Below are positions 17,692-48,035 of a stretch of DNA of 64,000 nucleotides, piece by piece. The position numbers were made by a program, and so were the translations under genes. The stretch spans positions 1-64,000 of the forward strand of contig NZ_BJEQ01000001.1 of assembly GCF_005405585.1 (NCBI RefSeq), read 5' to 3'. The notes below the pieces were generated by a model. The model was not told the DNA's origin. It did no database searches and saw only the letters and a program-made list of their open reading frames with translations. Source of the stretch: Agarivorans sp. Toyoura001. GTDB taxonomy: Bacteria > Pseudomonadota > Gammaproteobacteria > Enterobacterales > Celerinatantimonadaceae. Every line of letters begins with the position of its first letter. Position 1 is the first letter of the stretch.

Positions 17692-17726
17692 TGTTACATT
17701 CCTTAATCTTATTGCTGGCTTGGTGC

Positions 17727-18626: not shown

Positions 18627-18635
18627 AAATGGCTC

Positions 18636-24058: not shown

Positions 24059-24093
24059 TGTTACATTCCTTAATCTTATTGCTGGCTTGGTGC

Positions 24094-24993: not shown

Positions 24994-25002
24994 AAATGGC
25001 TC

Positions 25003-32343: not shown

Positions 32344-33029
32344 TCTTCCCCCATAACAATAGCTTCTGCTAGTTTAAAATCATAAATATCATCGATATCT
32401 ACTGCCCTTTCCTTCGGTACCTCGATGCTCGTCACTTTGCCACTGAACAGTCCATAATTATCCAAGACAAAGCGAGGGGTTGTCGCATACACAACGGTAG
32501 TAATATCAAACACTTCCGGAGCATCTTGTCGTCTCACCACTTCACCGCTTGGCTTATTCACTAATTCAACCAAGCCGTGCTCATTTTTCTTTACCATGTT
32601 AAAAAATGGGCTGCGGCTTGCGGGAGTCACGGAAATACAAATATCCGCAGAATCTTTCTGAAGTTGTAGGATTGACGATTCCACGTCTTCAACACTTCGT
32701 AAAGGGCTCGTTGCTGGCAGACTAATAAAGTGAGCAAATTCGCCACAATTGGCTTGTACCCACTCAACAGCATGACGCCATGAAAGCCACTCTGGGCTTG
32801 TGTCTGTTGCTAGTTCTTGTGGGCGTTCGATCAATGTCGCACCACAACCCACGGCGACTTCGGCAATGTCGGTATCATCAGTTGAAACAAAAACATCGCT
32901 AATCGATGCACAAGCTTTCGCTGTTTCAATCGAATATTGCAGTAGAGGTTTTCCAGCAAGTGGTTTGATGTTCTTGCCAGGTAAGCCTTTTGAGCCCCCG
33001 CGAACAAAAATAAATGCATAGTTTTTCAT
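32340..33029 (-). CDS. CMP-nonulosonate (acylneuraminate) cytidylyltransferase, LegF/NeuA-like
   Basis: Activates a nonulosonic acid with CTP to the CMP-sugar. 229 residues with the family opening FVRGGSKGLPGKNIKPLAGK, and a DIDDIYDFKLAEA ending that matches CMP-NeuAc synthetases. Given LegB, LegC and PtmE in the same operon, CMP-legionaminic acid is the likely product. ATG overlaps the SDR start by four bases. Confidence 0.9.
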   Translation of the reverse strand: MKNYAFIFVRGGSKGLPGKNIKPLAGKPLLQYSIETAKACASISDVFVSTDDTDIAEVAVGCGATLIERPQELATDTSPEWLSWRHAVEWVQANCGEFAHFISLPATSPLRSVEDVESSILQLQKDSADICISVTPASRSPFFNMVKKNEHGLVELVNKPSGEVVRRQDAPEVFDITTVVYATTPRFVLDNYGLFSGKVTSIEVPKERAVDIDDIYDFKLAEAIVMGEE

Positions 33030-33037
33030 TGGGTCAA

Positions 33038-34021
33038 CTAGCCTTTCGTTTGAGTTTTAGCATGCTGCTTCTTAATTGTTTCGATTAACTCGATCGTTTT
33101 ACCAGCCTGCTGAAGGTCGATACAACTATGCTTATTGTCTTTGGTCATATTGATGAAGTCTTGCAACATATTGAGGTACATTTTGTTCTTGTCCCAAGCC
33201 GGGTCGCTATAAACAGTACTTTCACCAGTATGGTTCGTCTGCTTAACTTCATTTTTAATCAGGTCCCATTCAACTATGCCTTTACTGCCTACAAAGCGGC
33301 AACGTCGATAAGCTTGGCGTTGTAAAAAGTCCAAATGAATATTGACCAAAGTACCACTCAGGGTAGTTGTGACAACATCAACCAAATCTTCCACCTCTAA
33401 GCCCAATTCATCTGAAAAGCGCAAGTGAGCGTATTGTAAGGTTAAATCACCAAGAAGCCACTGTGCATAATCTAACTCGTGGCTGAGCTCGAACAGTGCG
33501 CCTCCGCCTAGTTCTGCATTCGCAGATACACTGCTTCGATAATATTTACTTGGGCGCCAATCAGGTAGGTACTGTCCTATTTCAATATACGCATTATAGA
33601 GCTCTCCAATTGCCCCTTTGTCTAATAGTGCTTTTACTTCTAGGCTTGAAGGCAAGTAACGTAAGCAATAACCAACAGCAACAGGAGTTTGCGTTTTATC
33701 AACAACAGTCTGCAAGTGCTGCACATCCTCAACACGTGTCGTCACTGGTTTTTCAATCAATGTTGGAATAGCAGCCTTCAATAGCGGGATTGTATGCCCA
33801 GCGTGGAAAGGGGCAGGAGATGCAACGATAACAAGTTCCGCACCTGAGCGAATGATCTCGTCAACATCATGAACGACTTCGTCACAATCAGATACAGGAT
33901 CTGCTGGAACTCTCCCACTCGCCGACATAGCCAATAGTTTGCACTGTGGGAACAATAGCTTTAAGTTCCTTCTATGTCGGGTAGCAATATTACCCAATCC
34001 GATAACAGCAACGGTTTTCAA
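33038..34021 (-). CDS. Gfo/Idh/MocA-family oxidoreductase
   Basis: 327 residues with an N-terminal NAD(P)-binding motif GLGNIATRHRRNL (residues 8-20), the IEKP active-site motif near residue 90, and a C-terminal alpha/beta domain (GGALFELSHELD). It occupies the place held by ptmF in the C. jejuni legionaminic gene string (ptmE-ptmF-ptmB-ptmA), so I infer a dedicated step in making the GDP-linked amino sugar or in altering the nonulosonate. Reaction unknown. Confidence 0.82.
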   Translation of the reverse strand: MKTVAVIGLGNIATRHRRNLKLLFPQCKLLAMSASGRVPADPVSDCDEVVHDVDEIIRSGAELVIVASPAPFHAGHTIPLLKAAIPTLIEKPVTTRVEDVQHLQTVVDKTQTPVAVGYCLRYLPSSLEVKALLDKGAIGELYNAYIEIGQYLPDWRPSKYYRSSVSANAELGGGALFELSHELDYAQWLLGDLTLQYAHLRFSDELGLEVEDLVDVVTTTLSGTLVNIHLDFLQRQAYRRCRFVGSKGIVEWDLIKNEVKQTNHTGESTVYSDPAWDKNKMYLNMLQDFINMTKDNKHSCIDLQQAGKTIELIETIKKQHAKTQTKG

Positions 34022-34024
34022 AAC

Positions 34025-35086
34025 TTAGTCCAGCCCTAGTGTATGAATATCTGCTTGCGCGCGATTAAAGTCATCCATACGCCCGATATCCAACCAATAT
34101 TCATGAATTGGGAACATTAAAACGTTATCACGCTCATTCATATGCTCTTCAAGCAGCGTCGGCATATCCACTCTATGATTTTTAGGTACCGAAGCAATGA
34201 CTTCAGGTGACACAACATAAATACCCGCGTTGACAAAAAAGCGCTGAACCGGCTTTTCTACCATACTGGTGATTTTGTTGCCTTCGCCATTAATCACGCC
34301 ATATGGGATCTGATAGTCATACTCTCTCACGCACATTGTCGCGTCAGCTCCGTTATCAACGTGAAAATCAAGAAGGCGTTGGAAGTCGACTTTAGTCAGA
34401 ACATCACCGTTCATCATGATCAATGGCAGATTTTTTGGTAAATCCTTAGGTAATAATCCCAACGCACCACCAGTACCTAACGGTTGCTCTTCATGAACAT
34501 AGGTAACGTTCACACCCATTTCACTTCCATCGCCAAAATGCGCTTGAATCTGCTCTGGCATATAGTGCGTCGAGATATAGAAGTTAACAAAGCCTGCTTT
34601 GATAAAACTTCGAATGACGGTTTCTAGAATCGGCTTATTACCGATATGTAGCATAGGTTTGGGACACGTATCGGTAAGCGGCTTAAGGCGTGTGCCAAAC
34701 CCACCAGCCATGATAAACACAGGGTTCTGAAGCGTTGGTTGATGAAGCACTCCATGCAACGTCTCAAGCCCGATGATTCTACCGCTTAGATCTAGCAACG
34801 GGACTGACAAAATGTCTAGCTTTTCCATCAGTCCAATCAGCTCTTCTCGAGAAGAGCCTTCAACCGCAGTTGTTGGATTGGTGCGCATAACCTTAACAAC
34901 AGGGTCGACCAACGCCAGATCATTTAACAAACCACGTCGAATATCTCCATCAGTAACCATGCCAAGAAGCTTCTTATCTTGATCAACAACTATGGCAACG
35001 CGCAATGCTTCGCTGTTGATGACTTCAAGTGCTTGCTTGATCGTGCTTGATGCAGATATCAACGTTTTTTGCCAACAATGACTCAT
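34025..35086 (-). CDS. CBS-domain sugar-phosphate guanylyltransferase, PtmE/LegX-like
   Basis: 353 residues. Two CBS motifs fill about residues 1-115, then a nucleotidyltransferase domain opens with FIMAGGFGTRLKPLTDTCPKPML. This CBS-plus-transferase arrangement is that of PtmE, which makes GDP-glucosamine from glucosamine-1-phosphate in the legionaminic pathway. Presence of this gene argues for the GDP-linked legionaminic route rather than the UDP-linked pseudaminic or sialic routes. The CBS pair may sense adenine nucleotides. Confidence 0.85.
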   Translation of the reverse strand: MSHCWQKTLISASSTIKQALEVINSEALRVAIVVDQDKKLLGMVTDGDIRRGLLNDLALVDPVVKVMRTNPTTAVEGSSREELIGLMEKLDILSVPLLDLSGRIIGLETLHGVLHQPTLQNPVFIMAGGFGTRLKPLTDTCPKPMLHIGNKPILETVIRSFIKAGFVNFYISTHYMPEQIQAHFGDGSEMGVNVTYVHEEQPLGTGGALGLLPKDLPKNLPLIMMNGDVLTKVDFQRLLDFHVDNGADATMCVREYDYQIPYGVINGEGNKITSMVEKPVQRFFVNAGIYVVSPEVIASVPKNHRVDMPTLLEEHMNERDNVLMFPIHEYWLDIGRMDDFNRAQADIHTLGLD

Positions 35087-35103
35087 ATTCTACCTTTTCT
35101 TCT

Positions 35104-35760
35104 TTAAGAGTTTGTTTTAATTACTGCTCTAGCAGGGTATACAACGGAATTTTCTTTTAAAGACTGAGTCAGATTAGCGCCAGCACCCACGATAGCGCCA
35201 CAGCCAATAGATAGCCCTTGAATAACTGTTGAACCAGCCCCGACATAGACATTGTTTTTTGTCTCTACTTGACCACACAAAGTAGCTTTGGGAGCGATAT
35301 GGTTATAAGCACCGATTTTACAGTCATGCTCAACCACAGCTCCGGTGTTAACTATACTATGGCGACCCACTGCAGCCCCTGTCTGAATAATCGCCATAGG
35401 CAAAATCTGAGCACCGGTTTCGATTTTAGAAAACCGTGAAACGAGTGCACTGTCGGCTATAATCGTCTCAAACTGATAACCGAGTGAAAGAAAGCACTCA
35501 TTAATTTTTTGCTTAAAGCCAGATTGGGGCATCATCCCAATACCGTTAACCAAAAGTACCTTTTCTTTGTCAAAATTGAGAATATCTTCATCCTTTTCAA
35601 GGATGGTGATTCCTTTAAATACGGAACGTTGGCTGACATCATCAGGGCTTATCACAGCAAGAATGTCTCTTCCCTGGGTAAGTAGTATTTCAGCAAGAAC
35701 GGAGGCATGGCCACCCCCACCAATTAATACAATTGGCAACTTAGAAGCGGGGTTACTCAA
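35104..35760 (-). CDS. NeuD/PglD-family acetyltransferase (LegH role)
   Basis: 218 residues: N-terminal IGGGGHASVLAEILL binding motif, then hexapeptide repeats with EHDCKIGAYNHIAP carrying the catalytic histidine region. In this operon it is the only candidate for the 4-N-acetylation step (LegH) between LegC and LegG. It overlaps the synthase gene by eight bases. An acetyl donor is usual, but a different acyl donor cannot be excluded given the acyl cassette upstream. Confidence 0.82.
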   Translation of the reverse strand: MSNPASKLPIVLIGGGGHASVLAEILLTQGRDILAVISPDDVSQRSVFKGITILEKDEDILNFDKEKVLLVNGIGMMPQSGFKQKINECFLSLGYQFETIIADSALVSRFSKIETGAQILPMAIIQTGAAVGRHSIVNTGAVVEHDCKIGAYNHIAPKATLCGQVETKNNVYVGAGSTVIQGLSIGCGAIVGAGANLTQSLKENSVVYPARAVIKTNS

Positions 35761-36826
35761 GAATCAGCTCTCCAGCTCTATAAGCCTTTGAAGCAGTGCG
35801 CTCAAGCATGTCCCAATAGCGATAAGGCGACATACCGTCGCCCGGCCTTTTGATAGTCATGTTTTGGGGTGAAAATGCTTCACCTTCGTTAATATCACGA
35901 GCTGCGACCAGACTTTTCCTCGCCACCGCTTTATTTTTCACCTCTGAGACCGTTGGTGTTTTTACACGACTACCTAGTGCTTTCTCGACTTGACGAATAG
36001 CGCTCACCATTGCAGTTAGATCTTGAGGCTCGAGGGAAGCTTTGTGATCTGGCCCTTCCATGTTGTTGTCCAACGTAAAATGTTTTTCAATCAACACAGC
36101 ACCACGAGCAACGGCAGCAATAGGAATAGTGATACCTTGACTGTGATCTGAGTATCCAGCAGGTAAATCAAAAGCACGCCCTAAAGTGTCCATCGCTTTC
36201 AGGTTAATCTCTTCCATCGGCGCTGGATACTCTGTAGTGCAATGTAAGATGGTCACTTTACTCTTTAGAGCCCGCTGACCTTCATCAGAGGCATAAGCCT
36301 CTTGGAATGCTTGCACTGAAGGTACCGCACTGTCATCCGAAGTATAACCGAATGCAATGACCCCCAACGCCGTTTCGATCTCAGACAGCGTCGCCATACC
36401 GGTAGAAACGATCAAATCACACCCGGTACGAGCATGCTCCAGCACAAGAGGCGCGTTGGTTAGCTCACCAGAAGGTAACTTTAAACGAGTTAAACCAAGG
36501 TCATTAACTAAGAAATCCAAGCTCTCAGAATCAAAAGCCGTTGATAAAAACTCTATGCCGAGTTTCACACAGTGTTTTACCAATTCATGGTGGGCATCGT
36601 AAGAGAGCTCCAAGCGACTTAGCATCGCTAGTTGCGACTCTTGCTTTTGTGTATTCGTGACCTGATAGTCTGCTTGCTTAGCTTCTTCAGTAACGAGATT
36701 TTTCGCTTTAAACGTCTGAAACTTAACAATATCAGCCCCCGATTGATACGCAGCGTCGGCCAGCTCAAATGCCAGTTTTTCATCACCATTATGGTTTACG
36801 CCTGCTTCGGCAATAATCAGAGTCAT
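35753..36826 (-). CDS. legI: Nonulosonic acid synthase, LegI/NeuB family
   Basis: Condenses a 6-deoxy-diacetamido hexose with phosphoenolpyruvate to give the nine-carbon acid. 357 residues: TIM-barrel NeuB domain (EAGVNHNGD at residues 7-15, KFQTFKAKNL, YSDHSQGI) then a C-terminal antifreeze-like SAF domain (SLVAARDINEGEAF, IKRPGDGMSP). Substrate is inferred as diacetyl-bacillosamine-like mannose from the neighbouring leg genes. Confidence 0.9.
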   Translation of the reverse strand: MTLIIAEAGVNHNGDEKLAFELADAAYQSGADIVKFQTFKAKNLVTEEAKQADYQVTNTQKQESQLAMLSRLELSYDAHHELVKHCVKLGIEFLSTAFDSESLDFLVNDLGLTRLKLPSGELTNAPLVLEHARTGCDLIVSTGMATLSEIETALGVIAFGYTSDDSAVPSVQAFQEAYASDEGQRALKSKVTILHCTTEYPAPMEEINLKAMDTLGRAFDLPAGYSDHSQGITIPIAAVARGAVLIEKHFTLDNNMEGPDHKASLEPQDLTAMVSAIRQVEKALGSRVKTPTVSEVKNKAVARKSLVAARDINEGEAFSPQNMTIKRPGDGMSPYRYWDMLERTASKAYRAGELILE

Positions 36827-36877
36827 ACCGCTCTCTCTTTAATTTTCAAGTAACTAAAAGCTAAGTTTATAGCTTTG

Positions 36878-38044
36878 TTAGTTCGGTAAATCGTGGAATG
36901 TCTTACATGGATTGAAATCCAATGTTTTGATCATTTCGATGACCTTGCCGCTGGTGTTTCCCTGCCCGTAAGGGTTAGCTATCGCTTCCGTTGGCTCTTT
37001 ATAGTTGCGAGCCACTGCTGAGAACATCGCTCGTTCAATATCGGCTTGGTTTGCTTCACAATGCAAAACGCTCTTCGCGGCCAAACGCCCTTTCTGACGA
37101 GCACCGATATCGACAGTCGGGACTTCAAACGCCGGCACTTCAATAATGCCACTAGAAGAGTTACCAATAACCGCCGTAGCATGCTTCACTGCGCTAAGAT
37201 AGCGCACTTGACCCAGAGAAGGGATTGCCAATACGCGTTCGGGTTGGCTTGCAGCGTAGGCTTCCAGCATTGGAATGATGCGACGCCCACCATCATCGGC
37301 ATTAGGGTAAGTCAGAATAACTTGATGCTCAGGAAAAGCCTCTAAAGCATCTAGCAAAGCTTGAAAGGATGCTTCTGGCGCTTCATCTCCGAGTGTCACC
37401 GGATGGTAAGTCACTAAGAAAAACGGCTTGGTCAGAGTAAAGTTAAGAGACTCAGCTAACTCATTGACCGACATAAATTCAGCTCGTTTAAGATGATCAA
37501 GGCCAATTGCACCGACGTTATGAACGCGTTCCGGCGCTTCACCTAATTGAATAACCCGCTGGCGATATTCGTCCGTCGATGTGCCATGTAAATAGCTCAG
37601 CTTGGTAATCGCATGGCGAATCGCATCATCATAGGCACCTTCGGTGATCTCACCACCATGTAAATGAACTATAGGAATACGCATGATCATCGCTGTTTGA
37701 GCAGCTGCTAAAGCTTCAAAGCGATCGCCCAAAATAACTAATACATCCGGTTGTAAGCGCGCTAATGCATCCGAAAAGCCGAGCACACCAAGCCCCATGC
37801 TTTTCGCTGTTCCTACTGCAGAGTCCGACGAAAGAAGAATCTCGATTTTCTCATCAATCTTAAATCCATCTTTTTCGATTTGCTGGTACGTTTCGCCAAA
37901 TTCAGGTGAAAGGTGCATTCCCGAAACCAGCAACTGCAGTGCTAGGTCAGGATCACTTTGAATATCTTTCAAAAGCCAAAAAAGCAGACCGTACTCTGCT
38001 CTTGTTCCTGTAAAAACAGCGACTTTCTGCGTCTTATTTTCCAT
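36878..38044 (-). CDS. legG: Hydrolysing NDP-sugar 2-epimerase, LegG/NeuC family
   Basis: 388 residues of the UDP-GlcNAc 2-epimerase fold. Opening VAVFTGTRAEYGLL, HLHGGEITEGAYDDAIRHA, and IGNSSSGIIEVPAF motifs are typical of the NeuC branch that removes the nucleotide and inverts C2. In the legionaminic pathway this gives the free mannose-configured diacetamido sugar used by LegI. It begins one base within the legC stop. Confidence 0.9.
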   Translation of the reverse strand: MENKTQKVAVFTGTRAEYGLLFWLLKDIQSDPDLALQLLVSGMHLSPEFGETYQQIEKDGFKIDEKIEILLSSDSAVGTAKSMGLGVLGFSDALARLQPDVLVILGDRFEALAAAQTAMIMRIPIVHLHGGEITEGAYDDAIRHAITKLSYLHGTSTDEYRQRVIQLGEAPERVHNVGAIGLDHLKRAEFMSVNELAESLNFTLTKPFFLVTYHPVTLGDEAPEASFQALLDALEAFPEHQVILTYPNADDGGRRIIPMLEAYAASQPERVLAIPSLGQVRYLSAVKHATAVIGNSSSGIIEVPAFEVPTVDIGARQKGRLAAKSVLHCEANQADIERAMFSAVARNYKEPTEAIANPYGQGNTSGKVIEMIKTLDFNPCKTFHDLPN

Positions 38045-39201
38045 TAAGCGCCCTTGGATAGGTCAATAGGAGTACTTGGGATGTTGATCAAGTGAGCTTC
38101 AATAAACTCAGACTGAGTCAAGTCACCACGCAGTGCATTCTCGAACATAGGAAGACGATGCATCAGTTGCCAAATCGGACGCGTCATAACACCAGCAGAA
38201 TTGGTCTGCTCTAACATATGATCTCGCGATGCGGTATCTGGGCAGATAATCGCGTTTAACCAATAGTTCGAAGTCGCGTACTCTGGCTCTGTCACGAAAG
38301 TAAAGTCTGAAGCCGCGAAAAAGTGTTGGTATTGTTCAGCCAATTGACGCTTTTGAACTAAATAGGATTCCAATACTTCCATTTGCGCGCAGCCCAAAGC
38401 CGCATTCAAATTCGGCATTCGATAGTTAAAGCCTGGCTCATCGTGATAAAACTCAAAAGGGTGTGGAACCTTAGCAGTCGTGGTAACGTGCTTAGTACGT
38501 GCGCCCTGCTCTTGGGTTTTACAAAGGATCATGCCTCCGCCACCAGTCGTAATCACTTTATTACCGTTAAAACTGATCGCCGCATAATCACCCAACGTGC
38601 CTGTGTGTTGCCCTTTGTAGAAAGAACCTAAGCTTTCCGCAGCATCCTCTACCAAGACTAACTGCCACTTTAAACATACCGCAATCAACTCATCAAGTTC
38701 GACAGGGTGACCAAAGGTGTGCATTGGTACGACGGCACGAATGCGTTTGCCCGTTTGTTTATGAATACAACCTTTTTCGGTTACTTCAGCATGCTGTGTT
38801 AGATATTGCTCCACCGCCTTTGGGCACAAACCTAAGCTTACTGGCGATACATCCACAAAAATAGGCTCAGCTCCCATATGATAGAGCGCATTACAGGTTG
38901 CCACAAACGTCAAAGCCTGTGTTACCACTAAGTCACCACGCTCAACACCAGCCATGTAAAGCGCTGCATGCAAAGCCGCCGTGCCATTTACAGCAGCCAC
39001 GGCTTTAGCACTGCCAGTGTATGCTTCAATTTTCTGTTCGAATTCATTGACAAATTTACCAACGCTTGAAACGAAGGTACTTTCAATAGTTTCTGTTACA
39101 TAAGCCTTCTCGTTACCATCAAAGGTAGGCGCATGAAGAGGAATAAACTCGCTGGTCTGATATGTGTCGCGTACAAATTCTACTAACGATGTAGGTTTCA
39201 T
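38044..39201 (-). CDS. legC: PLP-dependent sugar aminotransferase, LegC family
   Basis: 385-residue DegT/DnrJ/EryC1-family aminotransferase. The PLP lysine lies in SFNGNKVITTGGGGMI, and the VEDAAESLGSFYKG motif is present. It should aminate C4 of the sugar produced by LegB. It lies nine bases downstream of legB and abuts legG, in the conserved legB-legC-legG order. Confidence 0.9.
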   Translation of the reverse strand: MKPTSLVEFVRDTYQTSEFIPLHAPTFDGNEKAYVTETIESTFVSSVGKFVNEFEQKIEAYTGSAKAVAAVNGTAALHAALYMAGVERGDLVVTQALTFVATCNALYHMGAEPIFVDVSPVSLGLCPKAVEQYLTQHAEVTEKGCIHKQTGKRIRAVVPMHTFGHPVELDELIAVCLKWQLVLVEDAAESLGSFYKGQHTGTLGDYAAISFNGNKVITTGGGGMILCKTQEQGARTKHVTTTAKVPHPFEFYHDEPGFNYRMPNLNAALGCAQMEVLESYLVQKRQLAEQYQHFFAASDFTFVTEPEYATSNYWLNAIICPDTASRDHMLEQTNSAGVMTRPIWQLMHRLPMFENALRGDLTQSEFIEAHLINIPSTPIDLSKGA

Positions 39202-39209
39202 AGTTGCTC

Positions 39210-40400
39210 CTACATTTTACTGTCTAGGTATTTGCCTGTTTCTTTGTGTCCAAAGTCAGGGATCATGGTAAAGAACAGCTCTACTATTTGCTCTTTTGTC
39301 CAAGCACGGTCAGATTTCATCTGGCCGATTGTATCTTCAAACAGTGACAGCAGTTCTTGCTGATAAAGAGGATCGTTCTTGATGATGCCCAAGTTAGCAA
39401 AACGCGCCATATCGAGTGCTTCTTTGTCGGTAAAGAACTCTTCAAAGTCTTTTTCACCCGTGGTATCACTCGAAGTAAACAAGCAAGGCCACTTACCTTG
39501 AGCAGGCAAAGTCTTAGCCAGTTCACGAGCTTCGTCTTCACTTTCACAAAGGTGAGGTTCGTAACCGCGTTGCTCAAGGTACTTCACCGCAATATCAGCA
39601 AAAGAGATGAGGTGTAGGGCTTCGCTTAACTTAGGGAAGAAGATGTCGCGGTTTTCACCAAAAATACAAGACATTAGACATAGTTCACCAGACTCTTGTG
39701 GCGTAACAAAATAGCGTTTGATGTCATTCGGCGCCACAATAGGCTGATTTTTCAGTAAACGCTGATTAAAACCATGCAACAATGAGCCATCTGAAAATGC
39801 GACGTTTGCGAATCGCGCCGTAGAAATCGCGATATCTTCGCTCTTACGCATTAGGAACATTTCCATAATACGCTTTGATGCACCCATCATGTTGACAGGG
39901 TTTGCTGCTTTATCTGTCGATACACAGAAGTACTTTTTCACCCCTGAATCGATAGATTGTTGAATGGTTTTATCAGTATTAAACACATTCACATCGATCA
40001 TTCGCATTAGTGTGTACGGGTCTTTTTCACTACGAACATGCTTAAGTGCCGATAAGTTCAGTACGTAATCATATTGGCCGTCCGCCTTTATAAAAGCATC
40101 ATACTCAATCGAACCGATATCAAGAGCAAAGGTTTGGAAGTCACCATCGATGTAACCAAATGAGCTACGAATGTCGCGCACGACTTCTACCATGTTGTTC
40201 TCACTGATATCTACAACATGCAGCTTCTTGGGGTTACGTTTAAAAATCTCTTTAGTCACAGCTTGACCAATAGAGCCTGCACCACCAAGTACAAGAAAAC
40301 GGGAGTCAGAGACAATGCGAGATAGCTCAGCTTCATGCTGACCAATGTCCTGAGTAAACAATGCATCGGTGCGACCGATAAGAGGTAGAATAGCGTTCAT
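39210..40400 (-). CDS. legB: NDP-GlcNAc 4,6-dehydratase, LegB family
   Basis: 396 residues from the ATG at 40400, which begins two bases after the deacetylase stop codon; the frame is open to 40454, giving 18 more residues inside that gene. Cofactor motif VLGGAGSIGQAV, then STDKAANPVNMMGASKR with Met-x3-Lys in place of Tyr-x3-Lys, as in soluble dehydratases of this group. It starts the legionaminic pathway, acting on the GDP-linked sugar if PtmE supplies it. No strong ribosome site at either start suggests translational coupling. Confidence 0.88.
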   Translation of the reverse strand: MNAILPLIGRTDALFTQDIGQHEAELSRIVSDSRFLVLGGAGSIGQAVTKEIFKRNPKKLHVVDISENNMVEVVRDIRSSFGYIDGDFQTFALDIGSIEYDAFIKADGQYDYVLNLSALKHVRSEKDPYTLMRMIDVNVFNTDKTIQQSIDSGVKKYFCVSTDKAANPVNMMGASKRIMEMFLMRKSEDIAISTARFANVAFSDGSLLHGFNQRLLKNQPIVAPNDIKRYFVTPQESGELCLMSCIFGENRDIFFPKLSEALHLISFADIAVKYLEQRGYEPHLCESEDEARELAKTLPAQGKWPCLFTSSDTTGEKDFEEFFTDKEALDMARFANLGIIKNDPLYQQELLSLFEDTIGQMKSDRAWTKEQIVELFFTMIPDFGHKETGKYLDSKM

Positions 40401-40401
40401 G

Positions 40402-41373
40402 TTAATTTGTATACCATTGGTTAGTTTTTGCATTTCTTTTTTTAGGTAAGTCATTGGTATCTAGACGAGGTAACAAAAGCGGACCATCCAATGCTAAATC
40501 AGCAACCCTAACTTCTGTGGTAAATGCGACTTTACACCCTTGCTTTTCTAGCTCAACCACAACCTCTTCACTAGAAGAACCGTAAGGATAACAGGCTGTC
40601 CAATTTTGCATGTCACAACCAATTGAGGCTAAAAATTCTTTAGAGCGGGTTAGTTCAACCTCTAAGGATTTTTCATCAAGCTTATTCCACCAATAATGAT
40701 CATAGCCGTGACAACCAACGTGCATTCCGTCTCGAACTAACTGCTCAAGTTGGTACTTATCCATGTACAACTCTCGACAAAACGCCGCTTCATCCATACC
40801 CACATATTGAGCAAAAAGCTTATCAGAAATGATATTTCTGAGTTCTTCTGGCAATGCGTGCTGAAGCATTCTCTTCACAAAAATCACATCTTGGCAATCA
40901 AAGCGATTCGCAACCGCAAACTCAGTGTAGTACTCGTCGAATAACTTTAGATCATAATCGATTTTATAGCGCTCAACCTCTATCTTAAGAGAACCAACAA
41001 GCTGTTGAATATCGGAGGTAGACGCTAAGATGAAATGAATTTTGTTCACATCTAGCACTTTGTGCTCAAGTACTGTTTTTGCTGGCACATAAAAAGAACC
41101 CTGCATACCCATTTTCTTCAAAATAGGATATACGTGAGTAAAGTGCTCGGCATAAGCATCATCAAAAGTAAGTAACAGAGCTTTCTCTGGTAAAGCTTGA
41201 TTACGGTATTTGGCGGCTAACACTTGCTCCATCGTCACAACATTATAATGCTTAGAAAAGAACTCGAGTTGTTCAACAAAGAGTTCGAGTTCTAAGCCTT
41301 TAATTTCTGGGTATCGCGACTCCGCGATTCGACGAACATAGTGGTACATAACAACGGTTAGTGGCTGAGACAT
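40402..41373 (-). CDS. Polysaccharide deacetylase (NodB homology), cytoplasmic
   Basis: 323 residues, CE4 carbohydrate esterase. Motif 1 TFDD has Asp71-Asp72, and motif 2 HGYDH has His222 and His226, the usual metal-binding set. There is no signal peptide, so it acts in the cytoplasm, most likely on a precursor sugar or lipid-linked intermediate. It is sandwiched between the acyl cassette and legB. One idea is removal of an N-acetyl group that is then replaced by another acyl group; this is inference. Confidence 0.85.
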   Translation of the reverse strand: MSQPLTVVMYHYVRRIAESRYPEIKGLELELFVEQLEFFSKHYNVVTMEQVLAAKYRNQALPEKALLLTFDDAYAEHFTHVYPILKKMGMQGSFYVPAKTVLEHKVLDVNKIHFILASTSDIQQLVGSLKIEVERYKIDYDLKLFDEYYTEFAVANRFDCQDVIFVKRMLQHALPEELRNIISDKLFAQYVGMDEAAFCRELYMDKYQLEQLVRDGMHVGCHGYDHYWWNKLDEKSLEVELTRSKEFLASIGCDMQNWTACYPYGSSSEEVVVELEKQGCKVAFTTEVRVADLALDGPLLLPRLDTNDLPKKRNAKTNQWYTN

Positions 41374-41382
41374 GCTGCTCCT

Positions 41383-42372
41383 CTAAATTACATTTGGTCG
41401 ATCTTGGTCGCCATCAGCTTTAAAGATCCTAATTGAAGTAGCTTCGCTGTTATCGTAAGCACACAAAATATCGATAGTTTTCAATTCAAATGGTTCGAAA
41501 TAATTCGGTACAACTACATCCCCATTAACTTTCCTAAAACCGCCAGACTCTAAAACATCTTGAGCTAAGCCAAATGCAATTAGATCAGCATACTCAGCTC
41601 CCCGTTCTTTCAGTAGTTTTTGGATAGATGCAGCAGATCCTGCTAGATAACTATCATCACCAATATAGTCAACAATTCGTATACATTTTGAACTTGGGCC
41701 TTGTTGCTCTCTAATCACCATACAAGCGGCGAGCTTATCTTTTGAGAAAATGCCAATAAAATCATAATCATAGATAGGATGTTCGACAAAGCGATGTTGT
41801 ATGTATTCTCTATCTTTTTTAGGGTACGAGTTAGTAAGAGCTAACAACGAAAACAACTCTTCATTAGGCTCAATAACCTTCAATTGAAAAGAGTCATCCA
41901 GTTCTGGGAATTCAATGTTCATCGTTAACTTAGCTGAACATTGAGCATTGCCAATGTACCACTGAATCATATACCCAACTTCAAAGTTCATGTAACGATA
42001 AATTGAAGAAGAAGTTTCATTAAGCCCTAAAGTTAAGTACCTACCATTAACTTTTTTTCTTAAAAAGCTAAGAAGCTTAAGCCCCAACATTGGTGCTTTA
42101 ACATCATCAGCAACCTTCCAAAGTGCACCAAACACGTCACTTTGCTCGCTTCCATAACTCACAGGAACAAAGCCAAGAATAGCTTTGATTTCTCCATCGC
42201 TATTCTTAGCAACAACCATATTCAGTTCCGATGGAGACAAGTAATTTTGGTATTGAAATAAAAACAATTCTTCGCTTTTGGCTAGGACATGACCTTTTTT
42301 CCAGTAATGGTTAATAAAAGCCATTATCTCTTTGGTATCAACAATCACAGCCATTGAGATTTTGTATTTCAA
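41383..42372 (-). CDS. GNAT-like putative acyltransferase
   Basis: 329 residues. The pattern of strands and helices (IMAFINHYWKKGHVL, IKAILGFVPVSY, then GLNETSSSIYRYMNFEVGYM) resembles the GNAT fold found in sugar N-acyltransferase-like proteins of polysaccharide clusters. I do not recognise a named family. It overlaps the VOC gene by four bases (ATGA), which supports the start. Its place at the end of the acyl cassette makes it the best candidate to transfer the acyl group to the sugar. Confidence 0.6.
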   Translation of the reverse strand: MKYKISMAVIVDTKEIMAFINHYWKKGHVLAKSEELFLFQYQNYLSPSELNMVVAKNSDGEIKAILGFVPVSYGSEQSDVFGALWKVADDVKAPMLGLKLLSFLRKKVNGRYLTLGLNETSSSIYRYMNFEVGYMIQWYIGNAQCSAKLTMNIEFPELDDSFQLKVIEPNEELFSLLALTNSYPKKDREYIQHRFVEHPIYDYDFIGIFSKDKLAACMVIREQQGPSSKCIRIVDYIGDDSYLAGSAASIQKLLKERGAEYADLIAFGLAQDVLESGGFRKVNGDVVVPNYFEPFELKTIDILCAYDNSEATSIRIFKADGDQDRPNVI

Positions 42373-42752
42373 TTTTCCTTCTCCAAGAATTCAACTAAGC
42401 CATAAGGAAAAACTAAAAAAGCCACTAGTCTTTGTTCAAACAACGCTGATGGCTTAGGCATCGATATAATAAATGCTCCGTTTTTTTTCGCCTTTTCAAG
42501 CTCTACATGAATATCTTCAACTTCATAGCACACATGATAGAAACTGACCTTTTTATTAACTAAGCTTTGAATTATCTTTCCAGCTATAAGCTCAAGTCTT
42601 GTCCCGTCACTCAGAGTAACAAGCTGAACGGAAGCTTGTTGCTTTTCATCAAAAACAACCTCAGATACCTCTTGGACATCGTGTAATTTCTTTGTTTTTG
42701 ACAAGGTCTCAGCAATATCTTCGCACGCAATGCCTAAATGATGTAACTTCAT
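42369..42752 (-). CDS. VOC-superfamily protein (methylmalonyl-CoA epimerase-like)
   Basis: 127 residues of the glyoxalase/VOC fold. It opens KLHHLGIACEDIAETL, with candidate metal ligands His4 or His5, a mid-chain glutamate (TRLELIAGK), a FYHVCYEVEDI segment and a terminal GLVEFLEKE. The layout is that of methylmalonyl-CoA epimerase. Within an operon carrying an acyl carrier protein, an epimerase or isomerase of a carrier-bound acyl group is plausible. Substrate unknown. Confidence 0.75.
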   Translation of the reverse strand: MKLHHLGIACEDIAETLSKTKKLHDVQEVSEVVFDEKQQASVQLVTLSDGTRLELIAGKIIQSLVNKKVSFYHVCYEVEDIHVELEKAKKNGAFIISMPKPSALFEQRLVAFLVFPYGLVEFLEKEN

Positions 42753-42771
42753 TCTTTTTCCTAATTATGGC

Positions 42772-45249
42772 TTAAATTGGGCCACCAAGTGATACCCAGC
42801 GAACGAGGCGATCTAACGCAAACAATCCATCCCATGGGGAATCAAAATGCGTCATGTACCCAACATCAGGGCATCTCATCGCGCCTTGCATTAAAATCTC
42901 ATTAGCAAACTGGAGCTTCTTCTCACCATGCATCGCTAAACCAACCGTTTGAATATCCTCATGCACGCTACCAATAACGTCAAAGACATTATCTACGGCT
43001 TTAACAGTAATCACGCGTTGATAGGTTGGTTCAACCAAATCAGTACCTTCATCGAACAATACCGTCCAGCGTAAATGACGGTCATTCCAAGATTCACCAA
43101 TGAAGCCATACTCCGCAATTTTTGAACGTATCTTGTTTGCCTGCCCAATGTCTGGCACTTGAGTCGGTAAGCGAACAAGGGCCTTATCCATTGCTGCGGC
43201 TAGCTTTTCAGCGAATTCTTTCGGGGTTATGTCACCGCCCTTTTCAACAAAGATGGTGTGAGGCGAAGCGCAAGCAAACTGGTCAAATACACTAGAATCC
43301 GTTGCTGCTCGACGTATCAGTTTTCGAATGGCCTTTTCGGAGTCTAAGGCGTCATTACCAATCACCATCATCGACAATTTAGGCCCAAAAAGGATATCTT
43401 GACTGTTATATTTTTTCGGTAAAGCACTTACCGCCTCTATTGCTTCTCGCCCCCCCCAAGCAATACGCACATCGGCATTCGCAGAAAAACGTTCTGCAAT
43501 CTTTGTTTGATGACGGTCAAAGTACACGACAGCCAGTGTTTCCAATAAGTCATCACCATGAATGGTATACCCACCAGGTGTGGTGTAACTGATGCCTTTA
43601 AAAGTACTTAACAACACAGGAAGTGCTTGAGATTCATCTGCCGATACCTTAAGGATATTCGCATTTTTACTCAACATACTCTGAACTAACGCAAACATAC
43701 CAAGCAGTGGCACATTACCAGATAGCCAGTGAGATACGACTCCTCTAGGCATCGCTTTAAGCGAACTGTGGCTGATGTCTTTGCGAGGCATAAAGTTGTC
43801 GAGAAAACCTCGTTGTCCGTGCAACGCCGAATCAAGCAAACTACGTAAGCGATTAGGTTCACACCAATCCGCCAAGAAGTTCAGCCCAGTATGACGATAA
43901 GGGTCTAACCCTGGATTTTCAGCCCAAGTTTTACGTGCGGTATCGAAAAGACCGAGTATCGCTTCAGCAGGCTGTTTCGCTAACCATTGTTGCTTCAATT
44001 TAAGGTGCGCAAGAATCGCATTTAGCTGCTCAGAAGGTGAGTCAGATTCATTCAAATCGACCGGAGTGTGATACACCACCATGTGTTCAGCTTGTTCTGC
44101 AGATTGCTTAGACGTTGGCTTTTGGGTGACTTTTTCAGACATGACATCACCACAGCCACGGACTTCAGCTTTTTTAGCTCGACCAATCACTTTGAAGCGC
44201 TTTCCTGCTCGCCCACATTCACACACTGAGTCTTCGACAACACCAAGATCATCGGTCAAAACAACGTTACCTGGGTAAGAGTGCTGCAGCGGGCTAACAA
44301 ACTCCAATAAGCCCACCACGCCATTCGGACAAGGTGATAGATCAGCTTCATCTCGAATAATCATGTCAGAATAAGCATGTACATGCTTCCAGCCCGCTTT
44401 ACAATCTGGGTAGTTCAACCCCATTTGCTCTGTAAAACCGTAAATATCAATAACATCATCAGGGAAAATACCCAACACGTGCGCGATGTCTTGGTTGAAT
44501 GTTTTCTTATCAACCTTCTCAGATTCCAGTTTCTTCCAGCCACCGATATGGATGACTTGAGAGCCAGCCGGAAGTTTAAAGGACACCCCTTTTTCTTTAA
44601 GGCTCTTGAAAACCGTATGGTACAGAACGAAAGTAAAACCGAAAATGACAAGCGGCTCTTCACTGTCTAACCCATTTAAATGCTCAACAAACTGCTGTTC
44701 TAAAAACTCTAAGGGAGCTGAAGGGCTAGAGGCATTAATAAAGTAATGAGAAGATGACGCAAAGTTCAAATAACCTTTAACGGCTGCAATACGAGCGCCT
44801 AAGTTGCTTGCATTTGGGCTGGTTGGATCGATATCCATGATACAAAACGGGCGCCTTTTCGGTCCTAAAACCTCTTGCATCACGCGAGCCATTGCTCTGG
44901 TTTGACGACGAGCCGTAACCTTATCAAGAAGAACGGTACTTGGTACCCCACTTGTCGCCGAAGATTGAAGCTTAGTCTTAATAGCCGTTTCACTAACCGA
45001 AGCTAATTTATGACCAAGAGCTTTAAAAATATGTACAGGGATCGCCGGTATGTCTTCCAAGCTTCCACTGAACTTTATTGGGTCGAACCCATTTTTCACA
45101 CAAAACTTACGGTACATCTCATTGCTGTTATAGTGATGCACTAGCTCTTCAAGCAAGTTCTGTTTAAATAGGGGTTGCTTTTGAGCTTCAGATAACTCGA
45201 AAGGGCGGGCATCTAATACGCTCGTTAGGCTTTCATTCTTTATAGACAT
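42772..45249 (-). CDS. Fused acyl-protein synthetase (LuxE) and acyl-CoA reductase (LuxC)
   Basis: 825 residues made of two lux-type enzymes. Residues 1 to about 370 match LuxE, ending with CECGRAGKRFKVIGR and a cysteine at 366 in RGCGDVM, which lies where the acyl-accepting cysteine near the LuxE C-terminus (Cys364 in Vibrio harveyi) is known. Residues about 400 to 825 match LuxC, with the catalytic thiol C660 in FDQFACAS. A polar linker of about 30 residues joins them. The pair would activate an acid and reduce it to an aldehyde with NADPH. No luxA, luxB or luxD are present, so light production is not implied. It overlaps the dehydrogenase gene by ten bases. Confidence 0.9.
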   Translation of the reverse strand: MSIKNESLTSVLDARPFELSEAQKQPLFKQNLLEELVHHYNSNEMYRKFCVKNGFDPIKFSGSLEDIPAIPVHIFKALGHKLASVSETAIKTKLQSSATSGVPSTVLLDKVTARRQTRAMARVMQEVLGPKRRPFCIMDIDPTSPNASNLGARIAAVKGYLNFASSSHYFINASSPSAPLEFLEQQFVEHLNGLDSEEPLVIFGFTFVLYHTVFKSLKEKGVSFKLPAGSQVIHIGGWKKLESEKVDKKTFNQDIAHVLGIFPDDVIDIYGFTEQMGLNYPDCKAGWKHVHAYSDMIIRDEADLSPCPNGVVGLLEFVSPLQHSYPGNVVLTDDLGVVEDSVCECGRAGKRFKVIGRAKKAEVRGCGDVMSEKVTQKPTSKQSAEQAEHMVVYHTPVDLNESDSPSEQLNAILAHLKLKQQWLAKQPAEAILGLFDTARKTWAENPGLDPYRHTGLNFLADWCEPNRLRSLLDSALHGQRGFLDNFMPRKDISHSSLKAMPRGVVSHWLSGNVPLLGMFALVQSMLSKNANILKVSADESQALPVLLSTFKGISYTTPGGYTIHGDDLLETLAVVYFDRHQTKIAERFSANADVRIAWGGREAIEAVSALPKKYNSQDILFGPKLSMMVIGNDALDSEKAIRKLIRRAATDSSVFDQFACASPHTIFVEKGGDITPKEFAEKLAAAMDKALVRLPTQVPDIGQANKIRSKIAEYGFIGESWNDRHLRWTVLFDEGTDLVEPTYQRVITVKAVDNVFDVIGSVHEDIQTVGLAMHGEKKLQFANEILMQGAMRCPDVGYMTHFDSPWDGLFALDRLVRWVSLGGPI

Positions 45250-46364
45250 TTCTTTACTATCTCTTTAACGTCATCTTCAGCGAAAGCGACTGGGTTTGTC
45301 GCAGCAGCAGGATCAAGTAATGCGTTCTTTGCAATGCTGTCTAGTTGCTCATTCGATAAATTCAAAGAAACACCTTGCCCCGAGGTTAAGCCCTCAAACA
45401 GGTCAAGAAGAGCCTGTCTACTTGGTAAACCAGCATTCTTAATTAATTGTTCATATTTCTGCTTAACAGCCTTATCTTGAGAATTGAACTCAATAACGGC
45501 TGACATAAGCAACCCATTTGCTAATCCATGCCCGACATTGAAATGTCCTAGTTGGTGGGCGATAGCATGTGAAAGCCCGACAACACAGTGGTTCTGAACC
45601 CAACCAGCAAGCATTGCAGCGTGCTGTAATTCTGAGAGCATGTCGATATGCCACTCATCCTGTTTTAACTGTGACTGATAACGATAAACAATCGATACGG
45701 CTTGTTCCGCAAATGTTTCCATTAATGGGTGAGGGATTTTAGACACATAGCCTTCAATCGCATGTGAGAGCGCATCGGCGACTGTAGTTCTTAAAATATT
45801 TAATGGGACCTCGGAGACAAGGTCAGGATCTAAGATCACTAAGTCAGGAAGGAAATCATGCGTAACGACCGCTTTTTTACTTTGAGTTGCACTATCTAAC
45901 ATGACAGCTGCCGATGACACTTCAGACCCGGCCCCTACCGTGGTAGGAATCGCTGCAAATTTTGCACGTCCACGTAGTGGCGGTATTGCAAATGGTCGGA
46001 ATAAGACATCAGTGTCGATCGTTGGGCATTCATAAAGCAGCCACGCTAGCTTAGCGCCATCAATAATAGAGCCGCCACCAAGTGCGACAATATAATCAGG
46101 TTGGAATGACTCAAGCTCACCAACCACACCTGAAAGTTCATCAACCGTCGGTTCACCTTTCCAAGATTTTTCAATCACACGAACACTTGTCGCGTTGACT
46201 AAACGAACAACTTGTTCAAAAAACTTTGACTTACGAAATGAGGGGCTGATTATTAGTGCGACACGATTTGCCACAAGGCCTTTGAGTGCCATTCTTGCAT
46301 TCTTTCCGTTCGCAATTTCATTAGCATTACGAAATACGGGCAAAGGAAATCGAAGTTTTAACAT
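45240..46364 (-). CDS. Iron-containing (group III) alcohol dehydrogenase
   Basis: 374 residues with an NAD-binding GGGSIIDGAKLAWLL motif near residue 95, an IPTTVGAGSEVSS segment and metal-ligand histidines in SHAIAHQLGHFNVGHGLANG. Interconverts an alcohol and an aldehyde. Being cotranscribed with an aldehyde-forming LuxE-LuxC fusion suggests it handles the same aldehyde, either reducing it to an alcohol or oxidising a hydroxyacyl precursor. Confidence 0.88.
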   Translation of the reverse strand: MLKLRFPLPVFRNANEIANGKNARMALKGLVANRVALIISPSFRKSKFFEQVVRLVNATSVRVIEKSWKGEPTVDELSGVVGELESFQPDYIVALGGGSIIDGAKLAWLLYECPTIDTDVLFRPFAIPPLRGRAKFAAIPTTVGAGSEVSSAAVMLDSATQSKKAVVTHDFLPDLVILDPDLVSEVPLNILRTTVADALSHAIEGYVSKIPHPLMETFAEQAVSIVYRYQSQLKQDEWHIDMLSELQHAAMLAGWVQNHCVVGLSHAIAHQLGHFNVGHGLANGLLMSAVIEFNSQDKAVKQKYEQLIKNAGLPSRQALLDLFEGLTSGQGVSLNLSNEQLDSIAKNALLDPAAATNPVAFAEDDVKEIVKKCL

Positions 46365-46373
46365 GAAGTTCTC

Positions 46374-47795
46374 TTACATTTTAGTCAGATGTAGACGTTG
46401 AATTTTACCTGTTGATGTTTTTGGTAACTCATCAATGACTTTGTACTTTTCAGGGCGCATATGAACAGGAAGTCGTTGTGCAACAGTTTCCCTTAGTCGA
46501 GATTCTAATGTATGAATTTCATCAATCATGGAAGGCTCAACAACGATAAACGCTTGAACGACTTCTCCCATGCTTGCATCTGCGCATGGAACGCAGGCGG
46601 ACTCTATTACACCATCATCAGAATTCAGCACTTCTTCAATTTGGTAAGGGCTTACCTTCTTGCCCCCTACATTGATGATCTCTTTAAGTCGCCCAGTTAA
46701 GAACAAATAATCGCTTTCATATTTGCCCAAATCACCTGTTCGGAAGTAGCCGTTCGAAAACGCTGCAGACGTCAAGTCCTGATTCTGGTAGTACTCTGTT
46801 AGCATCCATGGTGCCTTAAATGCTATTTCACCGATCTCACCTTCAGGTAGATGCAGTCCATCTTCATTAAGAATAGCAAACTTAGCACCTCGCGAGGCAT
46901 GACCTACAGCTTCTAAATTATCAGTATGGAAATGAGTGAATACCGCACGAGAAACTTCTGTCAAACCGTAGTGCATAACAATATGAGTCGATGGGAACCA
47001 TTGCATTAACAGTGCTTTATCCTCAGGGGACAAACGCGCACTTCCAAACTCTATATAGTTTAGCTGAGGACCATATTTACTGATGCGGTCTTTAGACATT
47101 GTAGTGATAAATGCCCAAGCAGATGGAACCAGCCCAAGTCCTGTTACCTTATGACTCTCAATTGCCTTAAAAACACTTTTCAAACGCTGTAACGGATAAC
47201 CTAATACCAACGTACCACCAACAAAAAGAGTGGTTCGCATGCGTCCCATACCAAAAGAGTGGCTAAGAGGCATTAACAAAAGCTCAACATCTTCTGGTGT
47301 GTTGCCTACCTCACCGACAATATGCTGAGTAGCTATCAACAACTGCTCATGATTCAAAGCGACACCTTTAGGCTCGCCAGTTGTCCCACTCGTAAACATG
47401 AGGTCGGCGATACCATTGGAAATATTGCTGCTAACTTCTTTGTCGGCCTCTAAAGGATGAATATCCGCTATGTAGGTTTGACAGTCTTCAATCGATAGAC
47501 TCGGATTAACCTTTTTATCGATAAATTGTTTGTAACTTTCGTCTGCGTCGGCAGCCAAGTTAACCACTTTTGCGCCAATATAATGGATCGCAAAATACAC
47601 AGCTACAAAAGCGTAACTGTTAGATGCCGTCACAACTACAGCATCTCCGGGTTCGACTTCCTTCATTAATTTAGAAGCCGTGCACTTGATAGTCTCAGCG
47701 AGTTGCATGTAAGTAACAGCTGTGTCTTTCTCGTAGAGAGCGACATGCTGAGGACGAGATGCTGCGTGAGCTAGTATTGTTTCGACTACCGACAT
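46374..47795 (-). CDS. AMP-dependent acyl ligase
   Basis: 473 residues of the adenylate-forming superfamily: FTSGTTGEPKG near residue 139, HYGLTEVSRA, YFRTGDLGKYE and a C-terminal PKTSTGKIQR lysine loop. It is shorter than typical acyl-CoA synthetases, like stand-alone adenylation proteins that load an acyl carrier protein. The carrier protein gene six bases upstream makes acyl-ACP ligase the natural reading. Confidence 0.85.
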   Translation of the reverse strand: MSVVETILAHAASRPQHVALYEKDTAVTYMQLAETIKCTASKLMKEVEPGDAVVVTASNSYAFVAVYFAIHYIGAKVVNLAADADESYKQFIDKKVNPSLSIEDCQTYIADIHPLEADKEVSSNISNGIADLMFTSGTTGEPKGVALNHEQLLIATQHIVGEVGNTPEDVELLLMPLSHSFGMGRMRTTLFVGGTLVLGYPLQRLKSVFKAIESHKVTGLGLVPSAWAFITTMSKDRISKYGPQLNYIEFGSARLSPEDKALLMQWFPSTHIVMHYGLTEVSRAVFTHFHTDNLEAVGHASRGAKFAILNEDGLHLPEGEIGEIAFKAPWMLTEYYQNQDLTSAAFSNGYFRTGDLGKYESDYLFLTGRLKEIINVGGKKVSPYQIEEVLNSDDGVIESACVPCADASMGEVVQAFIVVEPSMIDEIHTLESRLRETVAQRLPVHMRPEKYKVIDELPKTSTGKIQRLHLTKM

Positions 47796-47801
47796 AAAAC
47801 G

Positions 47802-48035
47802 TTACTCGTTGTTTAAAACAGCGTCGACAATGTCTTCTACATCTTCGATCTCTAACGTCTGCTCGATGTCTAACACTACGCCTAGATCTGACTCTAATGC
47901 AGCAATGATGCGCATGTGAGCAAGAGAGTCCCACTCTGGGATATCACCAACAGCTAATTCATCAATAATTTTTTCAACTGAAACTTCTAATATATTTGCG
48001 ATAAGTTGTTTAATCGAGTCTTTTGTTATGGACAT
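47802..48035 (-). CDS. Acyl carrier protein
   Basis: 77 residues with the phosphopantetheine attachment serine at residue 37 in EWDSLAHMRI, acidic overall with four-helix character. It is a dedicated carrier, not the fatty-acid AcpP, because it sits in an operon with an adenylating ligase and no ketosynthase. AAAGG precedes the ATG. First gene of the acyl cassette; the 172-base gap upstream should hold a promoter or processing site. Confidence 0.9.
   Translation of the reverse strand: MSITKDSIKQLIANILEVSVEKIIDELAVGDIPEWDSLAHMRIIAALESDLGVVLDIEQTLEIEDVEDIVDAVLNNE

Follow-up and report, generated by a model that had tools for sequence, protein, structure and literature searches.

The window examined here comprises the first 64,000 nucleotides (nt) of contig NZ_BJEQ01000001.1 of Agarivorans sp. 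Toyoura001 (assembly GCF_005405585.1), in which six consecutive genes, among them those for an acyl carrier protein (ACP) and a LuxE-LuxC fusion, lie directly upstream of a NodB-type deacetylase gene and an operon for legionaminic acid (Leg). On balance it appears probable, if only just, that these six genes and nodB constitute a carrier-protein-based N-acyl exchange module attached to the legionaminic pathway. The genes, their domains, one conserved cysteine each in LuxE and LuxC, and the co-occurrence of the genes were observed; from these we infer the reactions, the acid that is handled and the position on the sugar. The initial annotation of the window had proposed that an acid is loaded onto a carrier, that a thioester is converted to an aldehyde and that an acyl group is transferred, steps which the gene content supports, and it had read the outcome as an unusual decoration, acyl or derived from an aldehyde or alcohol, of the legionaminic-type sugar. 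An acyl-modifying cassette for the sugar is our reading as well; however, because NodB lies inside the unit, replacement of an N-acetyl group is likelier than an added decoration.

Gene content of the cassette

A check of the open reading frames (ORFs) in the window agreed with the initial annotation in placing all six genes on the minus strand at the same positions, upstream of nodB and legB, and Pfam supported five of the six proteins. These five are a dedicated ACP (47802-48035; PF00550, 22.2 bits against a cut-off of 20.8, with a DSL phosphopantetheine motif recognized by eye); an AMP-dependent acid:ACP ligase (46374-47795; PF00501, 1.2e-52, and PF13193, 6.3e-14); an iron-type alcohol dehydrogenase (Fe-ADH; 45240-46364; PF00465, 1.2e-31); an 825-residue fusion of a LuxE acyl-protein synthetase and a LuxC acyl reductase (42772-45249; PF04443, 5.5e-179, and PF05893, 2.1e-128); and a VOC/Glyoxalase_4 protein (42369-42752; PF13669, 1.9e-14). 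The sixth protein, GNAT2 (41383-42372), had no Pfam match of its own and is a candidate tandem-GNAT N-acyltransferase by family and fold comparison.

The description of the genes as mostly overlapping went too far, since overlaps occur at two of the five junctions (Fe-ADH with LuxE-LuxC by 10 nt, VOC with GNAT2 by 4 nt), the other three being gaps of 6, 9 and 19 nt. Because the gap from GNAT2 to the next gene is also only 9 nt, the unit runs on into that gene, which encodes a NodB/PgaB-type N-deacetylase on the same strand (40402-41373; PF01522, 1.2e-19) with no signal peptide apparent by eye. NodB, which had been left outside the cassette and which recurs beside GNAT2 in other genomes, thus belongs to the cassette unit.

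The LuxE-LuxC protein matched both chains of the solved fatty-acid reductase complex 7xc6, with one cysteine kept in the LuxE alignment and one in the LuxC alignment; we take these to be the catalytic positions. The fusion is no assembly error, since the same single ORF is found in Vibrio fortis Dalian14, in a near-copy of that locus (genome G734) and in Vibrio sp. 99-8-1. With the bioluminescence reductase LuxCE the window shares both families and the kept cysteines; unlike it, the window has a separate ACP and ligase, a sugar context, and neither the luciferase LuxAB nor the thioesterase LuxD among the proteins scanned (15 proteins of 31567-48035 by Pfam and two more by NCBIfam). The Fe-ADH was nearest to the alcohol dehydrogenase domain of AdhE (best PDB match 3zdr, 5.8e-45; NCBIfam PRK13805, 197.3 bits, below cut-off), and AdhE-type iron alcohol dehydrogenases are a class of enzymes for aldehydes and alcohols. 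The VOC protein weakly resembled methylmalonyl-CoA epimerase (TIGR03081, 32.6 bits, below the cut-off of 114.95).

Copies of the cassette in Vibrio

The window-type arrangement was found again only in V. fortis Dalian14 (locus L084; near-copy in G734) and Vibrio sp. 99-8-1 (locus L085). Like the window, both loci hold the ACP, ligase, Fe-ADH, LuxE-LuxC fusion, GNAT2 and NodB together with Leg genes; unlike it, they have no match to the VOC protein, a diverged GNAT2 and another order of blocks. The L084 and L085 stretches start inside neuC and legC, and Leg genes are seen from there on; in G734 the whole operon from legB to ptmA is present. A search for co-occurrence beside leg genes had been put forward by the initial annotation, and in two Vibrio species such co-occurrence is seen for every cassette member except VOC. 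Recurrence of the ACP, ligase, Fe-ADH, LuxE-LuxC, GNAT2 and NodB in both species makes the association more than chance.

The ACP was 84-86% identical between the window and the two Vibrio loci. Between the window and V. fortis, the ligase, Fe-ADH, LuxE-LuxC and NodB proteins were 94.7-98.6% identical, PglD was 60% identical and GNAT2 34% identical (33-34% when both Vibrio loci are considered). The DNA of 41425-42771 had no match in L084, and both of its flanks matched at about 95%. Two sharply bounded acyltransferase swaps separate the window from L084, at 35104-35760 and at 41425-42771, the rest being mostly 92-96% identical DNA. As judged from the aligned sequences, the acyltransferase/VOC slot is swapped between the window and V. 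fortis copies, and NeuD/PglD and the Fe-ADH are kept in all three copies (window, V. fortis and Vibrio sp. 99-8-1). As G734 belongs to a different family from that of the window genome, the cassette block probably moved between families.

LuxE-LuxC cassettes in other genomes

Matches to the LuxE-LuxC protein were found in 13 of 99 relatives, in 4 of 369 genomes sampled from the class, in 41 of 394 from the order and in 12 of 392 from one other family. The samples are not disjoint, and the genome of the window itself is counted in each of the first three. The stretch around every genome match, except those of the window and G734, was taken as a comparison locus, giving 52 loci. Within 8 kb of LuxE and on the same strand, LuxC was present in 52 of these, the ligase in 51, the ACP in 50 and a short-chain dehydrogenase/reductase (SDR) in 46; Fe-ADH, GNAT2, NodB and VOC were present in none. 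The ACP, ligase and LuxC, all of which the window string also has, stood together within that distance in 49 of the 52. The ACP, an SDR, the ligase, LuxE and LuxC, which make up the usual string at these loci, form a recurrent module that occurs mostly in sugar loci. The window differs from this core in having Fe-ADH in the place of the SDR, and LuxE and LuxC in one ORF instead of two; its six genes represent a rare form of a cassette that is already known but unexplained.

A NeuB homologue above 80 bits occurred somewhere in the fetched stretch at 32 of the 52 loci, and among the remaining 20 another sugar-gene query (LegF, PtmE, LegC or PglD) was matched in 14 and none in six. The contrary case named by the initial annotation, in which the same string would be widespread away from glycan loci, was not encountered among them. 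Near LuxE-LuxC, a two-subunit transketolase is encoded at L098 (11975-13893) and L062 (3170-5113), and a thiamine pyrophosphate (TPP) enzyme at L061 (4444-6309), which suggests occasional use of the aldehyde in forming carbon-carbon bonds. In plasmids, LuxE-LuxC matched 80 records, with identity below 60% in all; in E. coli genomes, no match was obtained to LuxE-LuxC by blastn or to the Leg genes by megablast.

According to the accessible text of two papers, an ACP, an AMP synthetase/CaiC, a FabG ketoacyl reductase, LuxE and LuxC occur in the flagellin glycosylation islands of Aeromonas Group II (PMC7874193) and Enterobacteriaceae (PMC4875605), and both papers guess that a 'liposugar' is made. 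What these islands share with the window is a glycan locus that combines the ACP, AMP ligase, LuxE and LuxC, with pse genes alongside in Aeromonas. The window is unlike them in its iron ADH for the SDR, its fused LuxE-LuxC and the addition of GNAT2, NodB and VOC; it is also a Leg and polysaccharide locus, whereas theirs are flagellin loci, in Aeromonas for pseudaminic acid (Pse). The earlier statement that no named pathway combines these parts was therefore too strong, the core being described for these islands and a related set for Yersinia ruckeri O1 in the available part of PMC5552943.

Two masses were considered as clues to the product. One, a 376-Da Pse derivative of Aeromonas, is reportedly found also in a strain without the LuxE cassette. 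It was dropped, since in the accessible portion of PMC7874193 it is seen both in the wild type and in an fgi-1 mutant, the LuxE cassette being intact in both. The other, a 236-Da group beyond a 274-Da nonulosonic acid in S. oneidensis, is not tied to the cassette in the accessible portion of PMC3765264.

The GNAT2 family and its NodB partner

Members of the GNAT2 family were found in the window, V. fortis, Vibrio sp. 99-8-1, a Yersinia-like genome (G1108), Sinorhizobium americanum, Subdoligranulum variabile, plasmids of E. albertii and a prophage of E. coli, the last assigned because its DNA resembles that of the E. albertii pair. In seven of these eight kinds of locus a NodB gene adjoins GNAT2 or lies one ORF away, the exception being Subdoligranulum. 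A terminal D-x-D-x-D-R-P motif is kept in six aligned members; the E. albertii member (L189) scored over the Pfam Acetyltransf_1 cut-off, and that of G1108 just below the Pfam GNAT cut-off (19.6 against 20.7 bits). The top 50 Foldseek matches of the predicted GNAT2 model included N-myristoyltransferases, Eis2, glucosamine N-acetyltransferase, 2hv2 and VipF, all of which we take to have two GNAT-type domains, at template-modelling (TM) scores of about 0.3 and root-mean-square deviations of about 16; this low-confidence model suggests that GNAT2 consists of two GNAT-like halves by fold. The GNAT2 protein was not matched in phages, and a GNAT2 profile built from three rows found one of 148 genomes, the window's own.

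The surroundings of the pair varied. In Sinorhizobium the NodB-type gene lies one ORF from GNAT2, with LegF-, NeuB- and NeuC-like genes alongside. In Subdoligranulum (L184, 4479-8951) genes for FkbH, an ACP, MaoC and an SDR are followed by GNAT2, an ACP-based acyl-building set outside the Proteobacteria. E. albertii plasmids of 62-64 kb carry a stand-alone, overlapping GNAT2-NodB pair (L189, 8928-10957; L190, 825-2855), the GNAT of L190 being split into two ORFs; NodB was found on seven of these plasmids, and the GNAT2-NodB context was seen in the two that were examined. In E. coli locus L193 (NZ_CP070103.1, 4255881-4282599), a GNAT gene interrupted by IS1 and a NodB gene stand at the end of a prophage, directly after a tailspike-domain gene, and look like receptor-modifying (seroconversion) cargo; this pair had a match in 2 of 5426 E. 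coli genomes, with 79% of the query covered. An archaeal nonulosonic locus on a Halorussus plasmid (L192) contains a NodB-type gene and two formyltransferases, a possible deacetylate-then-formylate analogue.

A related string in Yersinia

Beside the Leg genes, the genes exclusive to Y. ruckeri O1 listed in the accessible text of PMC5552943 include a set at BI323_13885-13905 that encodes a phosphopantetheine protein, an AMP-dependent synthetase, a 3-oxoacyl-ACP reductase and a polysaccharide deacetylase, one locus tag being skipped before the deacetylase. G1108, whose Leg operon (legB-ptmA) and neighbouring genes fit Y. ruckeri O1, holds an ACP-ligase-SDR-GNAT2-NodB string between ORFs that resemble transposases by eye; GNAT2 is 31% and NodB 63% identical to the window proteins. 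Because GNAT2 stands between the SDR and NodB in G1108, the skipped locus tag is probably GNAT2. The Y. ruckeri O1 list thus resembles the window in its ACP, AMP synthetase, reductase and deacetylase, to which G1108 adds GNAT2, NodB and the legB-ptmA operon. Unlike the window, G1108 has an SDR for the iron ADH, no LuxE at E values up to 1 and no match to VOC, and its acyl string lies about 1.45 Mb from its Leg operon, which shows that such a string can be remote from the operon. Since G1108 is without LuxE, LuxE-LuxC is not needed for a Yersinia-like route.

The Y. ruckeri O1 sugar is, we assume, a 7-acetamido-5-(4-hydroxybutyramido) nonulosonic acid; if so, the GNAT2-NodB pair is associated with an N-5 group other than acetyl. 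On the same assumption, the idea that LuxE-LuxC is needed for every 4-hydroxybutanoyl sugar was rejected, G1108 being without LuxE. Pse that bears 4-hydroxybutyric acid in amide linkage is described in PMC9912281. Other papers cite 4-hydroxybutanoyl sugars for Idiomarina abyssalis and Pseudoalteromonas nigrifaciens.

The legionaminic operon and other features of the window

On the minus strand beyond NodB, the window encodes a LegB-type 4,6-dehydratase (39210-40454; PF02719, 1.9e-44), the aminotransferase LegC (38044-39201; TIGR04181), a NeuC/LegG hydrolysing 2-epimerase (36878-38044; TIGR03568), a NeuB/LegI synthase (35753-36826; TIGR03569) and, for the ordinary acetylation step, a NeuD/PglD-type sugar N-acetyltransferase (35104-35760; TIGR03570), the TIGR matches all being over cut-off. 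A PtmE-like nucleotidyltransferase (34025-35086), a PtmF-like oxidoreductase (33038-34021), LegF (32340-33029) and a PtmA-like SDR (31567-32343) follow on the same strand, each with Pfam and NCBIfam support; the names PtmE, PtmF and LegF for the proteins of 32340-35086 are our presumed assignments. The window operon thereby matches the ptmE-type legionaminic operon, which we take to be defined by legB, legC, neuC, neuB, neuD/pglD, ptmE, ptmF, legF and ptmA, all of them present.

To these were compared 27 ptmE-type operons, namely 20 of the 24 other ptmE loci of one search and 7 of the 9 of another. None of the 27 had GNAT2, NodB, Fe-ADH, LuxE-LuxC or ACP nearby, that is, mostly within 10-15 kb a side and less at contig ends (in G935, legB and legC lay beyond reach). 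The sole ligase match among them was weak (42 bits) and lay outside the operon, in G1108. Because phmmer searches that start from one window protein at a time may overlook diverged ACPs and ligases, as happened with the ACP of L188, the absence of these two from other Leg operons is weak evidence. Profiles of GNAT2 and NodB, run against the collected loci of at least 4,300 bases with E values allowed up to 10 and 1, respectively, found no loci beyond those named in this text.

Elsewhere in the window, an rmlBACD-like rhamnose block occurs twice (16280-19712 and 22647-26076, 98.8% identical over 3418 nt; gene names read from translations), and translations also indicate an aminotransferase (5401-6570) and a PglD-like protein (6653-7273). 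A promoter and terminator scan yielded 10 promoter-like sites against 17.2 in shuffles, an uninformative result, and 13 terminator-like sites against 6.7.

Proposed N-acyl exchange

In the exchange that we favour, the ligase would charge the dedicated ACP with a short acid; within the fusion, LuxE would activate a carboxyl group and hand it to LuxC, LuxC would reduce it to an aldehyde, and the iron ADH would reduce the aldehyde to an alcohol. The product would be a hydroxyacyl-ACP, preferably an omega-hydroxyacyl group made from a dicarboxylic acid, of which 4-hydroxybutanoyl from succinate would be the simplest. NodB would deacetylate one nitrogen of a legionaminic intermediate, most likely the one that becomes N-5, and the tandem GNAT2 would acylate the freed amine with the hydroxyacyl group carried by the ACP. 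An optional tailoring step may be provided by the VOC protein, perhaps as an epimerase, and together with the swapped GNAT2 may set a stereocentre.

We reasoned that a single molecule with two carboxyls, one tethered and one reduced, would require both the ligase and ACP and a separate LuxE-LuxC-ADH chain, and that the presence of an ADH in place of the SDR suggests aldehyde reduction as the shared step. N-5 is preferred as the exchanged position because, given the order of the legionaminic pathway, NeuD/PglD serves the other nitrogen, and it is kept. The link to the sugar is strengthened by the occurrence of the cassette with legionaminic genes in two Vibrio species and by the separate GNAT-NodB pairs. 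A broader proposal, which we put forward only tentatively, is that a mobile NodB and a new tandem-GNAT family might carry out N-5 exchange with carrier-built acyl groups; LuxE-LuxC and the ADH would supply an omega-hydroxyacyl (4-hydroxybutanoyl) group, the GNAT/VOC slot would be swapped between copies, and the pair on plasmids and at the tailspike end of the prophage would act as a serotype switch.

Several observations weigh against the exchange module. The window and V. fortis copies, at about 95% identical DNA, are not independent. The ADH fell under the cut-off in all 18 of its NCBIfam matches and reached only 123.4 bits, against a cut-off of 500, for the 4-hydroxybutyrate dehydrogenase NF058672; the best 25 of 107 NCBIfam matches of the ligase were likewise all below cut-off. 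The role of the VOC protein is unexplained and its gene is not conserved in relatives, and the predicted structure of GNAT2 is poor (pLDDT 54.7). In G1108 the ligase is only 24% identical to that of the window, and LuxE was not found at E values up to 1; the structure of the Y. ruckeri O1 sugar is, moreover, an assumption here. The NodB of Sinorhizobium is only 20% identical to that of the window, NodB occurs without a GNAT2 match in Paracoccus and Halorussus loci, and the host of prophage locus L193 has an O8-type O-antigen locus, and no nonulosonic gene is annotated across the inspected stretch. Finally, the 52 other LuxE cassettes are without GNAT2 and NodB nearby.

Alternative explanations

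Exchange by NodB and GNAT2 would still take place if the group were a 3-hydroxyacyl-ACP (for example 3-hydroxybutanoyl) or another short hydroxyacyl-ACP for which LuxE-LuxC makes the starting aldehyde or acid. A FabG-kind SDR is indeed the usual reductase in the related cassettes and the Yersinia-like string, and several N-(3-hydroxybutyryl) sugars are known from marine polysaccharides, according to the accessible text of PMC3210612. We nevertheless consider such a product unlikely, as the window has an AdhE-like iron ADH instead of an SDR, which fits an aldehyde better than a 3-oxoacyl substrate. Less likely still is an acceptor other than legionaminic acid, namely a different amino sugar of the repeat unit; the window does hold further sugar genes, such as the aminotransferase and PglD-like genes described above, but two Vibrio species carry the unit together with legionaminic genes, and the GNAT2 and NodB-type genes of Sinorhizobium are neighbours of NeuB and NeuC.

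Reduction of a fatty acid as in bioluminescence, with a lipid-like group then put on the sugar, is the published guess for the related flagellin islands (accessible text of PMC7874193 and PMC4875605), and the match of LuxE and LuxC to a solved bioluminescence-type fatty-acid reductase agrees with it. A long chain would, however, need no second activation by a ligase and ACP, and no lipid-modified nonulosonic acid appears in the accessible parts of the open-access literature consulted. The acyl group assumed for Y. ruckeri is, moreover, short, and a long-chain 'liposugar' therefore seems to us improbable, somewhat more so than a different acceptor sugar. The least likely alternative, and a very improbable one, is that the aldehyde made by LuxE-LuxC enters a carbon-carbon bond or stays as it is, with the ADH only protecting the cell; the transketolases of L098 and L062 and the TPP enzyme of L061 point in that direction, but no TPP enzyme was present among the window genes scanned, and the ADH is found in all three copies.

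Significance

Unusual N-acyl groups on sialic-acid-like sugars shape bacterial serotypes, yet our searches of an open-access library turned up no description of the way in which groups such as 4-hydroxybutanoyl are produced and exchanged. If the carrier-protein-based exchange proposed here is correct, it would assign a job to the LuxE-LuxC genes annotated 'fatty acid synthesis' in glycan islands, the deacetylase-acyltransferase pair could be used to predict an acyl pattern from sequence, and the cassette would offer a set of enzymes testable one by one.

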